From Deltaproteobacteria bacterium (GTDB lineage Bacteria > Bdellovibrionota > Bacteriovoracia > Bacteriovoracales > Bacteriovoracaceae): 40,379 bases of DNA. Of the stretch, positions 3,199 through 33,356 are shown piece by piece (positions within the stretch are counted from its first letter, which is position 1; each line of letters begins with the position of its first letter). The notes below the pieces were generated by a model that worked only from the letters and a program-made list of their open reading frames with translations, was not told the origin of the DNA and searched no databases. The stretch is from NCBI GenBank assembly GCA_004356615.1, contig SMWT01000072.1, positions 1 through 40,379 on the forward strand. The letters are read 5' to 3'. The translations under genes and the position numbers were made by a program.

Positions 3199-4887
3199 AT
3201 GGATGACGCCAAGAGTATTGCTGACGAAGAATGGTTTTTTTATTTCAGAATCTCTTCCTCCTTATGGAAGGAAAAAATTGAAAAATTTAAGGGCCAACAA
3301 ATAATTGTTCCCATCCATTGGGCCTTTCACCAGGTCGATGAATACACTTTTGAGTTTGGGGAAAATAGGAAAGAGGCCAATTTAGCACAAATTGTTTCCT
3401 TGGCCGAAGAAGTAAACAAGAAAGTTATTTTTTATCTTCCTCTTACCCCGGCCCCCTTTCTACCAGATGGGGGTATTCCAGATTTTTTAAAAAATACTCT
3501 CTCTTTAAATAAGGAAGGGCTACTTCATACTTGTTTAGACCATGAAGGAAAAGTTAATAAACTATACTCCTTTTTTGATAAGCATATTTACCGGGGATTT
3601 AGTTACTTTGTTAAAAAACTTGGTGAGTATGTAAAAAATGAAAAAATAAATTCAGACTTCTGGGGCGTAATCTCTGGCCATTTAAATGAGGGACGTTTTT
3701 CTAGTTTTTTAGAGGACTATTCTCCCTCATTTCATAGATCTTTTGGCCAGTATATTGAGGCCTTAAGAGACCATGATAAAGAATATTCTTTGGAATCTGT
3801 AAACGAAGAATTAGTTCTTATTAACCGGTTTAATTACTTTATTGGGGATCTATATAAAAAAGTGGCCAGGGAGGGATTGGGCCCTAACTATGAAGGCCAT
3901 CTAGAACTTGTCCTATTAGGGGCCAATACTACAGACTTTATCAAAAGATGTTCAAACTCAGATCTGGAAAATAATTATATCGATGAACTTAAAGAGAGTG
4001 TTTATCAAGGTCTTGTTCCCTGTTCGATCCTTTTAGGGGAAAATTCTAGATCTGAGGTCTTTGGGCGTCAGTTAAATGATCTTTTGCTCGAAAATTATTT
4101 GCCTCAGAAAATAAATCCTCCTCTTAATGAAGAAGACAGTTGTAGCTTTTCTTTGCTCTCATTTTTTAACCTCTACAAATCTCCGATAACGGAAGAAAAT
4201 ATTTGGGTAAATAACGGTTTGGTGGGTTTTTTAAATCAAAAATATAAATGGGCCTATAACTATTATTTTAATGAATACAATTATCCTGACTTCGCTGATG
4301 ATACTAAAGTGAACTTCCTTCCTGGTGAGATAATAAATGGAAAAATTTTTGGGGGCATTTTAAGAAGTTTTATGGAGGGAGGTAAGTTTATTATCGAAAA
4401 AAACAAGCTGGATGAGGAACTCGCTAAAAAATTCGAGCTTTTTGTCCTGGAAAATTCCATAAAAGTTGAAAAGTTGAAATTTTTCTCGGAAATCCAAAAT
4501 ATTACTCTTGGTGAGGGACGGATTTTACTTTTTGAAGGATCCATTTTTAAAGAATTGGCCGAAAATCAAAAGAGTGTTTTTTGGGAAAAAATAATCAACA
4601 CCTTCCATTTAAAGCATGTGGAATTTGAACTGCCAGAAGAAGTGGACTTTTTTTGGACTACTAGGATGATCTCTCCCAGTGAAATAGATTTTCAGGAAGT
4701 GAGGAGATTGCATCTTTATAATACTGGCAAGGGTAAACAGCATTTTAAAGTTAAATTAAGGAATAAGACTTCGTTAGTTAAAGTAGCTAGTAAGTACAAC
4801 GCAAAAGTGAAGACAAAAGCACAAAGTATTGAAGCAGAATTAGACCCAAGCGGAAGCATTGATATGGATTTTGGTATCTGGCCCTAG
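3199..4887 (+). CDS. Putative divergent glycoside-hydrolase-like protein (GH42/GH35-like TIM-barrel N-terminus)
   Basis: VPIHWAFHQVDEYTFEFGE...LAEEVNKKVIFYLPLTPAPFLPDGGIPDFL and ISGHLNEGRFSSFLEDYSPSFHRSFGQYIEALRDHDKEYSLESVNEE resemble GH42-type beta-galactosidase segments. Assignment by eye only. Confidence 0.45.
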   Translation: MDDAKSIADEEWFFYFRISSSLWKEKIEKFKGQQIIVPIHWAFHQVDEYTFEFGENRKEANLAQIVSLAEEVNKKVIFYLPLTPAPFLPDGGIPDFLKNTLSLNKEGLLHTCLDHEGKVNKLYSFFDKHIYRGFSYFVKKLGEYVKNEKINSDFWGVISGHLNEGRFSSFLEDYSPSFHRSFGQYIEALRDHDKEYSLESVNEELVLINRFNYFIGDLYKKVAREGLGPNYEGHLELVLLGANTTDFIKRCSNSDLENNYIDELKESVYQGLVPCSILLGENSRSEVFGRQLNDLLLENYLPQKINPPLNEEDSCSFSLLSFFNLYKSPITEENIWVNNGLVGFLNQKYKWAYNYYFNEYNYPDFADDTKVNFLPGEIINGKIFGGILRSFMEGGKFIIEKNKLDEELAKKFELFVLENSIKVEKLKFFSEIQNITLGEGRILLFEGSIFKELAENQKSVFWEKIINTFHLKHVEFELPEEVDFFWTTRMISPSEIDFQEVRRLHLYNTGKGKQHFKVKLRNKTSLVKVASKYNAKVKTKAQSIEAELDPSGSIDMDFGIWP

Positions 4888-29533: not shown

Positions 29534-29621
29534 CCTAAAATCAGCACCTTATAATTAATATAATCCTTTGAGTTTTCAGCTCTTTGGTGTTAGGTTACAT
29601 GCAGCAATTTTAGCTTATCTC

Positions 29622-29642
29622 GCCCAATTATGGGCCTTTTTT
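29622..29642 (+). terminator. Short attenuator/terminator-like hairpin in the leader of the S6-S18 gene
   Basis: GCCCA-ATTA-TGGGC followed by C and six T's, immediately upstream of AGGAGG. Confidence 0.4.
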
Positions 29643-29657
29643 GTCCAGGAGGTAAAT

Positions 29658-30284
29658 ATGATCTACGAACTGGCCGTAGTTTTAAAAGATGGTTCCGGTG
29701 ATGCCGGAGTCGAATCCACAACAAAAACCCTTAAAGAAATCGTCGCTCAACATGGTGGAGAAATCCTAGTAGAGGATAACTGGGGTGTTTTAACCTTTGC
29801 CCAACCATCTTCTGCAGGCATCAAAAGAGGTGGATATTTATACTTTATGTATAGTTCAGATACTGAGGCCAACAAAGAAGTTAACCGAAGGTTTAATATT
29901 GATGAGTCGATTCTAAAATATATGGTTCTTCGCCTAGGTGAAAATGCTGAAGCTGAAGCTTTAGTTAAAAATTATAAAACCCCATATTCTACTAGTCATA
30001 AGGGCAGTGCCACTGATGGTATTAGTGAAGAGTCTGGTATGGATATGGAAAAAGACCGAAAGAAATTTGCCAAGAGAAAAACTTGTTGGTTTACCGCTAA
30101 AAATGTAAAGGCAGATTGGAAAGACCCTAAAACCTATTCATGGCTGGTTAATGAGTTTGGTAAAATTTCCCCAGCGCGTGTTTCTGGTATTAGCCGGAAA
30201 CATCAAAGAGTTGCCAACAATGCAATTAAGCGTGCAAGAAATCTTGGGATTGCTTCTGCTTTATCAAGAAGAAACGCGGAATAA
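29658..30284 (+). CDS. rpsF-rpsR: Fused ribosomal proteins bS6 and bS18 in one ORF
   Basis: S6 part: MIYELAVVLKDG...DNWGVLTFAQPSSAGIKRGGYLYFMYSS...VNRRFNIDESILKYMVLRLGE. S18 part: DRKKFAKRKTCWFTAKNVKADWKDPKTYSWLVNEFGKISPARVSGISRKHQRVANNAIKRARNLG. AGGAGG before the ATG at 29658; the ORF track shows no intervening stop. Confidence 0.9.
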   Translation: MIYELAVVLKDGSGDAGVESTTKTLKEIVAQHGGEILVEDNWGVLTFAQPSSAGIKRGGYLYFMYSSDTEANKEVNRRFNIDESILKYMVLRLGENAEAEALVKNYKTPYSTSHKGSATDGISEESGMDMEKDRKKFAKRKTCWFTAKNVKADWKDPKTYSWLVNEFGKISPARVSGISRKHQRVANNAIKRARNLGIASALSRRNAE

Positions 30285-30285
30285 A

Positions 30286-31290
30286 ATGGTCTCAGAAAAC
30301 AACGACCGCCGGATGGTGGAAGAAAATGAAAGTCCTCAGTTTGGTAAAATGGTTTTTTTGATCATTATTGCTCTCGCTTTGACTTCTTTTCCTCCCCTAA
30401 GCATTTTAGCTCCGGCCCCAATCGCCTTTGGGTTGCTGCTTTTTGGCAGAAGAAGAGGACTCGTTATGGCAGGCGCCTACGTAGTAGCTCTGTCTTTCTT
30501 GTCTTACTACTACCCAAAGATTTTTCCTCTTTTAGGCCCAATAGCTTTTGCTATGGCATTAGTTGGATATCTTTTGGCCGAAGTGGTTTTAAGGAAAATT
30601 CCACCTAGAAAGGGAATGGTTTATAGCGGATTGGCCCTTTTTTTAGGAATGGGATTGATCGTTGGTCTGGCAACTATGGCCACAGATTTTAGTATTGAAA
30701 AATTGATCGAAGTAAAAGTTGTTGAAGTCATTGAGGAGTTTAAAGCTTCCAATAAACTAGATGGCCTTAAGGCCCAAAGTGGAGAGGAGGCCAGGGCCTT
30801 ATTAGATGTTATCAACAACCCTAAAACACTGGTGAAAAAAATAGTTACTTGGCTTCCTGCGGGAGTTTTTGTTTCAACAATTTTCGCTGTATGGGCCTGC
30901 TTGTATGTGATTCTTAGAAATTCACTACTTTGGCGGGGGAAAGTCTCATATCCTTTTGGACTTAGGGATCTGCTTAATTTTAAGGTGCCGGATTATTTTG
31001 TCTGGCCGCTGATTGGCGCATTGGCCTTAACTTTGGGCGGGGATTATCTTTTAGGAGAAACCGGAGTCATCGTAGGCACCAACCTTTTATACATCTTGGG
31101 AATTTTTTATTTTTTCCAGGGGTTTGGTGTTTTAGTGGACTTTATGGATCACCTCAAAATATATGGCTTTTTTAGAACCCTGCTTATGGCCTTCATATTT
31201 TTCATGGCCTGGAAGGTGCTTGTCATAGTGGGTGTTTTTGACCTTTGGGTTAATTTTAGAAAATTTTTAAAGAAAAAAGAAAGTAAATAA
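30286..31290 (+). CDS. DUF2232/YybS-like multi-pass membrane protein
   Basis: Hydrophobic protein starting MVSENNDRR; located between S18 and L9 as YybS-type proteins often are. Family call from architecture and context. Confidence 0.65.
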   Translation: MVSENNDRRMVEENESPQFGKMVFLIIIALALTSFPPLSILAPAPIAFGLLLFGRRRGLVMAGAYVVALSFLSYYYPKIFPLLGPIAFAMALVGYLLAEVVLRKIPPRKGMVYSGLALFLGMGLIVGLATMATDFSIEKLIEVKVVEVIEEFKASNKLDGLKAQSGEEARALLDVINNPKTLVKKIVTWLPAGVFVSTIFAVWACLYVILRNSLLWRGKVSYPFGLRDLLNFKVPDYFVWPLIGALALTLGGDYLLGETGVIVGTNLLYILGIFYFFQGFGVLVDFMDHLKIYGFFRTLLMAFIFFMAWKVLVIVGVFDLWVNFRKFLKKKESK

Positions 31291-31300
31291 GGAGAATGAA

Positions 31301-31900
31301 ATGAAAGTAATATTAACAAAAAAAGTTCCTACACTTGGAAATATTGGAGAAGTTGCCAATGTTTCACAAGGATATGGAAGAAATTATCTTATTCCAAATG
31401 GGATGGCCGTTTTAGCAGACAATGCTCATAAAAAAGAATTTGAAAACCACAAAAGAAGACTGACCAAAAAAATTGAAGAAGAAAAAACTGCTGCCATGGA
31501 TATAAAAAAGAAAATCGATGGTTTGGTTATCGAACTTGAAAAGAAAGTTGGCGCAAATGGTAAACTGTTTGGAACAGTAACTACTAGTGAGCTTTCCAAG
31601 CTATTAGGTGATAAAGAAATTGAAGTAGAAAAAAGGTGGATTACCCTTTCTACCCCGATTAAGAGCACCGGCTCTTTTACCGCGGATGTAAAACTATTTA
31701 CTGATGTTATTGCCCAGTTTGAAGTTAAAGTGGCGATGGATCCAAAACAGGCCTTAGAACTTAAAGAAAAACAGGCCCAAGCGGAAAGAAATAAGTCCAA
31801 GAAAAAAGCTGCAGCTGAAACAAAAGAGGTAGCAGAAGAAGAAGTTGAAAAGACCGAGGAAGAAAAACTGCGCGAAGAAGCAGAAAAAATAATTGGTTAG
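31301..31900 (+). CDS. rplI: 50S ribosomal protein bL9 with charged C-terminal extension
   Basis: MKVILTKKVPTLGNIGEVANVSQGYGRNYLIPNGMAVLA; GKLFGTVTTSEL. Roughly 50-residue Lys/Glu-rich tail. Confidence 0.95.
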   Translation: MKVILTKKVPTLGNIGEVANVSQGYGRNYLIPNGMAVLADNAHKKEFENHKRRLTKKIEEEKTAAMDIKKKIDGLVIELEKKVGANGKLFGTVTTSELSKLLGDKEIEVEKRWITLSTPIKSTGSFTADVKLFTDVIAQFEVKVAMDPKQALELKEKQAQAERNKSKKKAAAETKEVAEEEVEKTEEEKLREEAEKIIG

Positions 31901-32012: not shown

Positions 32013-33356
32013 ATGTCCGAAGCAAGAAAAGAACTCCCCCATGATTTATTGGCCGAAAAATCCCTTTTGGGGTGCTTGATTATTGATAGCTCGGCGATGG
32101 ATGATCTTTCAGATTTAAAGATCGATAAAAAGGATTTTTATCATCCGCAATATGGAATCATCTTTGAATCCATTCTCGATTTAAACCTTGCGGGCCAACC
32201 GGTTGACTACGTCACCCTGACCTCAAGACTTACTGAAAAAGGAAAGATTGAGGGTATTGGTGGGCAAAAGGCGCTTTTAAATATTATTGAAGATCAGGCC
32301 TCATCGGCCAATGTCTACACTTATGGAAAAATTGTAAAAGATAAGGCCTCGCTTCGTAAGATGATTAGAACTGCTAGTCGAATTGTTGATAAAGGAATGA
32401 ACTTTTCCGGAAAGATTGAAGAGTTTATTCAAGAGATTGAAGAATCCTTTTTTAAGCTAACTCTTGATGCCAGAAAAGGAGGCATGCAAAGGTTAAATAC
32501 TGTTTTAAAGGATAATTTAAAAGAGCTAGAAAATACCTCCAGAAAACCTGGGGAAATAATGGGGATTCCCACTGGCTTTCCAAAACTGGATCAGATCTTA
32601 CTGGGAATGCAGCCAGGGCAACTAATTATCCTCGCCTCCAGGCCTGCCATGGGAAAAACTTCACTTGCGCTGAACATGGCGATAAATGCGGTAGAACAGT
32701 CTGGACTGCCCATCGCCATCTTTTCCCTGGAGATGATGGCCCAGGAATTAAGTTTTAGACTGTTATCAGGTCGGGCCAAGCTAGATTCTAAAAAATTAAA
32801 AACCAAAAACTTTACTGATACTGATCTTAGATCTATTTCAAGAGCGGTTAGAGAACTTTCAGAATTTCCAATTCTTATAAATGATGATGGGGTGAATGTT
32901 TTAGATATTCAAAGTCAGTGCCGTAAAATTAAAGCAGAGCAAGGCCTTGGAATGGTCATTATTGATTACCTCCAGCTAATGAAATCTCACACGGGAAACC
33001 CTTCAAGGGAACAACAAATTGCCGAGATATCTAGAAGCTTAAAGGAAATGGCCAAGGAGCTTGAGTGCCCGGTTTTTTGCCTTTCACAGCTAAACCGGGC
33101 AGTTGAAAACCGTCCAGGCAATAAAAGGCCTAATGTTTCAGATCTAAGGGAATCGGGAGCGATCGAGCAAGATGCTGATGTGGTCATGCTGATTTACCGG
33201 GATGAAGTTTATAACCCAGATACCAAGGACAAAGGAATAGCTGAAATCATTGTCGGGAAAAATCGTAGCGGAGAGATGGGCACTGTTAAGTTGGCCTGGG
33301 TCGGGCCTTATACAAGCTTTGAAAATTTGTCCTACACTGAAAGTGCAGAATACTAA
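32013..33356 (+). CDS. dnaB: Replicative DNA helicase DnaB
   Basis: LPHDLLAEKSLLGCLIID; LIILASRPAMGKTSLALNMA; MVIIDYLQLM; DLRESGAIEQDADVVMLIYRDEVY. Confidence 0.96.
   Translation: MSEARKELPHDLLAEKSLLGCLIIDSSAMDDLSDLKIDKKDFYHPQYGIIFESILDLNLAGQPVDYVTLTSRLTEKGKIEGIGGQKALLNIIEDQASSANVYTYGKIVKDKASLRKMIRTASRIVDKGMNFSGKIEEFIQEIEESFFKLTLDARKGGMQRLNTVLKDNLKELENTSRKPGEIMGIPTGFPKLDQILLGMQPGQLIILASRPAMGKTSLALNMAINAVEQSGLPIAIFSLEMMAQELSFRLLSGRAKLDSKKLKTKNFTDTDLRSISRAVRELSEFPILINDDGVNVLDIQSQCRKIKAEQGLGMVIIDYLQLMKSHTGNPSREQQIAEISRSLKEMAKELECPVFCLSQLNRAVENRPGNKRPNVSDLRESGAIEQDADVVMLIYRDEVYNPDTKDKGIAEIIVGKNRSGEMGTVKLAWVGPYTSFENLSYTESAEY

Follow-up and report, generated by a model that had tools for sequence, protein, structure and literature searches.

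Does the open frame that joins ribosomal proteins bS6 and bS18 in a Deltaproteobacteria bacterium of the family Bacteriovoracaceae encode one protein, or is the fusion only apparent? The two proteins form the textbook assembly heterodimer, and ribosomal-protein fusions are, to our knowledge, rare in bacteria. The DNA analysed, hereafter the window, is a stretch of 40,379 nucleotides (contig SMWT01000072.1 of assembly GCA_004356615.1). Direct translation of its positions 29658 to 30284 (plus strand, as are all parts of the gene, its leader and the two genes that follow it) gives 208 residues and then a stop, with zero internal stops. Within this single frame Pfam finds a complete bS6 domain (PF01250) at residues 3-92 (29664-29933) and a complete bS18 domain (PF01084), with an acidic linker in between. 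This confirms, by translation and by Pfam, the original prediction of an uninterrupted 208-codon frame made of an S6 domain, a linker and an S18 domain. The linker, about 30 residues of Ser/Gly/acidic composition, covers residues 106-135 (29973-30062), and the extent first proposed for it, T108 to D133, proved correct; two in-frame ATG codons lie in it at codons 128 and 130 (30039-30047). The bS18 domain, which is of a one-cysteine form, occupies residues 136-208 (30063-30281) with its PF01084 core at 30099-30251. Translation starts at the ATG of position 29658, which follows the Shine-Dalgarno (SD) sequence AGGAGG (29647-29652). A longer ORF from 29568 was considered as the true start and ruled out, since the MIYE found at the 29658 start is invariant in 44 aligned fused proteins.

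Such a frame could arise if an error of sequencing or assembly masked a stop and a start between the domains, and the genome of the window is indeed fragmented (161 contigs, 82% completeness). However, a full-length fused frame is shared by 110 genomes of 40 genera, as counted from the search table of the 129 same-family genomes searched, and these include the single-contig G137 and the two-contig G003. Furthermore, comparison of the linker with that of the sister species gives a pS of 0.46 and a pN of 0.08, so that synonymous differences are far above replacement ones. The error was therefore rejected and we give it practically no credence; the indel that had been named as one way in which the prediction could fail is refuted by the same 110 genomes. 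Another concern raised with the prediction, that intact rpsF or rpsR genes might exist elsewhere, found no support either. Indeed, no second S6 or S18 gene is present in the 161 contigs of the window's genome, at 82% completeness, and no credible separate copy of bS6 or bS18 was seen in the 110 fused-frame genomes; only in G109 was the S6 part matched weakly a second time, with 22% identity and an E of 7e-4.

Given a genuine frame, bS18 could still be made, mainly or additionally, from a start inside the linker, in which case the fusion would be only apparent. Some extra bS18 is possible from the two ATG codons of the window, and one subclade carries an ATG directly in front of the S18 domain (KKMFSKRK), at the usual position of the rpsR start. 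The region that aligns with window residues 106-141 was compared in 45 representatives; it is 26-41 residues long there, with D, E, G and S abundant. In 24 of the representatives, however, the linker contains no in-frame ATG, GTG or TTG, and in 28 no ATG; a separate bS18 start is therefore not a conserved mechanism, and internal initiation was rejected as a general one. The window and its sister species share their linker ATGs but with no clear SD ahead of them, while the upstream start has a strong SD which is conserved in relatives. Hence we consider a bS18 made from the linker very improbable. The dN/dS of the linker against the sister species is 0.12, between the values of the S18 half (0.07) and of the S6 half (0.23), therefore the linker is read as protein in this frame and is under purifying selection. 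A translated linker could also be cut by a protease, the fusion being then a small polyprotein that fixes the synthesis ratio only and delivers separate bS6 and bS18 to the ribosome. Its acidic, low-complexity composition and its length of 26-41 residues are those of exposed linkers, but no conserved cleavage motif is visible in it: a proline at its start (P109) is invariant and a basic stretch precedes the S18 cysteine, and the remaining sequence varies. We regard cleavage as unlikely. The explanation that we favour, and hold to be quite probable, is a single protein of ~23 kDa in which an acidic flexible linker ties bS6 to bS18, which would form an intramolecular heterodimer on the 30S platform and would repress its own synthesis via its leader.

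As regards domain identity, the Ribosomal_S6 match has an E of 6.5e-17 and 62 bits (cut-off 27) and covers positions 2-90 of the 90-position profile, and the Ribosomal_S18 match, at residues 148-198, has an E of 9.6e-16 and 58.1 bits (cut-off 21). The bS18 half also passes the NCBIfam model TIGR00165 (52.3 for a cut-off of 38.75). The bS6 half, at 31.5 bits, stays below the equivalog cut-off of TIGR00166 (42.9 bits) and is divergent as judged by this model. It is taken as the bS6 candidate because it holds the full domain, because of the gene order and because no other bS6 was found; in a fold search it matches the S6 chains of solved ribosomes with a TMt of up to 0.90. In E. coli S18, K60 and R63 touch a conserved cytosine pair, present in the leader as in the rRNA, and Y23 and K24 contact S6 (PMC4647458). 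The equivalent residues of the fused bS18 half, namely K191 and R194 for K60 and R63, and W154 and K155 for Y23 and K24, are invariant in 44 fused proteins, the aromatic W154 standing in place of Y23. The AlphaFold2 model computed from the fused-protein alignment has, over the whole chain, a mean pLDDT of 84.9 and a pTM of 0.79, the confidence being lower in the region of the linker. It suggests two domains in a defined arrangement within the chain.

In order to read the distribution of the fusion, it should be considered that the family, order and class searches cover the same 129 genomes, the class being represented by one family, and that the phylum sample consists of about 80 genomes of other families. 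Among the matches listed for these ~80 other-family genomes, none has one frame spanning both domains. G195, which belongs to another family and whose two halves had been assigned to one long open frame, was examined as a second fusion and rejected, as direct reading shows a stop followed by a new ATG and thus split genes. Two named records have a fused gene: L034 is labelled Halobacteriovoraceae, and L033 (QNFX01000013.1) is titled Epsilonproteobacteria, a title that is probably wrong as the record is apparently of the window's genus. Within the family, five genomes of four genera (G002, G019, G025, G104 and G028) have rpsF and rpsR in separate frames with their own starts, and their bS6 ends soon after a conserved tail motif that the fused bS6 has as well. 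Their bS18 has an acidic, linker-like N-terminal extension, from which the linker of the fused protein most likely derives, the rpsF stop having been lost. A further genome, G026 (L030, G026:C61:11570-12163, minus strand), has a frame of the fused type except for a single TAA in the linker, and from this TAA to the S18 domain there is no ATG, GTG or TTG; the TAA may be a base error, or may correspond to a broken gene or to unusual decoding.

In the dnaB+L9 tree the split G002, G019, G025 and G104 come first and G028 lies inside the fused group. The RpoB+RpoC tree has a different root. In both trees G019, G025 and G104 group together, but the place of the split genomes relative to the two fused groups differs. 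When a single fused clade is forced, the AU test gives p values of 0.047 with the outgroup and 0.053 without it, which is at the border of rejection. On these sequences, the fusion may have been gained once, with or without a later loss, or twice. Since the split G028 sits among or near fused lineages and G026 carries a stop, the fusion may not be indispensable.

The bS18 proteins of the split family members and of several outgroup genomes exhibit the pattern CxFC ... GxCxxHQR, which is of the CxxC...CxxH zinc-ribbon type. In the fused members examined only the first cysteine of this pattern is found, unlike in the split relatives. The pattern is also absent in some outgroup families, hence its loss is not unique to the fusion. 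Across the families of the phylum it varies, as seen for L041, L042 and L048 compared with the window. Among the aligned genomes of the family, it distinguishes the split from the fused: G028 has it and G026 does not. This suggests that G028 was never fused, which argues against its being a simple revertant, and that the ancestor of G026 was fused.

Upstream of the fused gene, a leader RNA element was delineated at 29615-29655. Its closing stem P1 pairs 29615-29621 with 29649-29655, and four bases of the SD lie within the 3' arm; its inner hairpin P2 pairs 29622-29626 with 29631-29635, and a conserved CC stands at 29645-29646. Upstream of fused genes in general the element can be written CUC-G-stem-loop-stem-GGGC ... 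CCAGGAGG. In the relatives, the CC that precedes AGGAGG has one invariant C and one that hardly varies, and in 6 of the 7 consensus leader pairs both partners have changed with the pairing maintained. The P2 arms have 7.25 of 8 positions paired, compared to 5.85 (maximum 6.18) with shuffled partners. Support for the fold is comparative, as the window leader alone folds no better than its own shuffles (z about -1). Window positions 29622-29642 read GCCCAATTATGGGC followed by a T run, which gives them the look of an intrinsic terminator; the hairpin is kept in relatives and the T run mostly is not, therefore it is read as P2 of the leader.

In E. coli, the S6:S18 complex acts as a repressor on the rpsF leader (PMC4647458). 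The leader of the window's family shares with this RpsF_leader (RF02893) the closing stem, the inner hairpin, the conserved CC on the 3' side and the location directly ahead of rpsF, but its closing stem includes the SD itself. The Rfam covariance model of RF02893 gave no match in the window or in the family at E values up to 1 or 2, while the E. coli leader used as positive control was found at 2e-26. Hence the element has the layout of the RpsF_leader and is not filed under RF02893; judging by this layout, it probably works like the rpsF leader, with repression predicted to be exerted by the fusion protein. The original suggestion that a fusion could alter operon autoregulation is thereby indirectly supported.

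In other bacteria bS6 and bS18 pair before 16S rRNA binding. In the single fused protein that we favour, both halves belong to the same chain, so that the bS18 half would dock on the bS6 half in a necessarily 1:1 ratio, and the fused unit would fill the sites of both proteins on the 30S platform. When in excess, the free protein would repress its own translation, with the CC adjacent to the SD recognised by its bS18 half. The gene of a DUF2232 membrane protein (30286-31290) starts with an ATG one base past the stop of the fused gene, therefore repression may reach DUF2232 by translational coupling, and perhaps rplI, the bL9 gene at 31301-31900. From these elements we infer an uncut chain in the ribosome, intramolecular docking and repression through the leader; a locked stoichiometry, as originally proposed, is a consequence of the arrangement provided that the chain is uncut. 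The 30S subunit of the window's family would then probably have one fewer separate part.

Compared to the known rpsF-(priB or ssb)-rpsR-(rplI) operon, the locus has the same protein families in the same order, with bL9 and a replicative helicase gene downstream; dnaB follows rplI at 32013-33356, and the order rplI-dnaB is also found in relatives. The fused form differs by being one polypeptide with no gene in between. That ssb is absent from between the two domains, as originally noted, holds true. However, this absence is not tied to the fusion and is not novel, as the five outgroup loci in which rpsF and rpsR are adjacent (L041, L042 and L046-L048) have no ssb between them either. With bS18 encoded by a separate gene, the fused bS18 has in common the S6:S18 contact residues and the RNA-binding residues. 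In contrast to separate bS6 and bS18, the C-terminus of the fused bS6 and the N-terminus of the fused bS18 are not free, and the bS18 is of the one-cysteine form. The free ends are sites of modification, since RimK adds glutamate to the bS6 C-terminus and RimI acetylates the bS18 N-terminus. If the fusion is uncut, both modifications would be impossible at their usual places. A loss of RimI as a corollary of the fusion was considered and dropped, because every genome contains many acetyltransferases that match the rimI profile, which is thus uninformative.

No published S6-S18 fusion was found in the open-access literature searched. The fusion is thus real, conserved in the family and, as far as the open-access literature goes, undescribed. 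The chances are about even for the wider picture, in which nearly an entire class would have 30S subunits with bS6 and bS18 permanently joined by a covalent link, the zinc ribbon lost alongside, the known end modifications ruled out, and one molecule both assembling into the subunit and repressing its own mRNA. A natural fusion would show that bS6 and bS18 can reach the 30S as a joined unit. It would also provide a ready-made covalent pair for studies of assembly and autoregulation, which gives it interest for specialists in ribosome assembly and in the regulation of ribosomal proteins, and whether it matters that bS6 and bS18 have free ends, and that these are modified, becomes testable. Furthermore, the fusion can serve as a marker for a large, mostly uncultured and partly predatory bacterial group.

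Two other features of the window may be mentioned. At 3199-4887 it contains an open frame of 562 residues with no Pfam match at E 1e-5. The DUF2232 gene, which lies between the fused gene and rplI, is fast-diverging, with 46% identity to its counterpart in the sister species.
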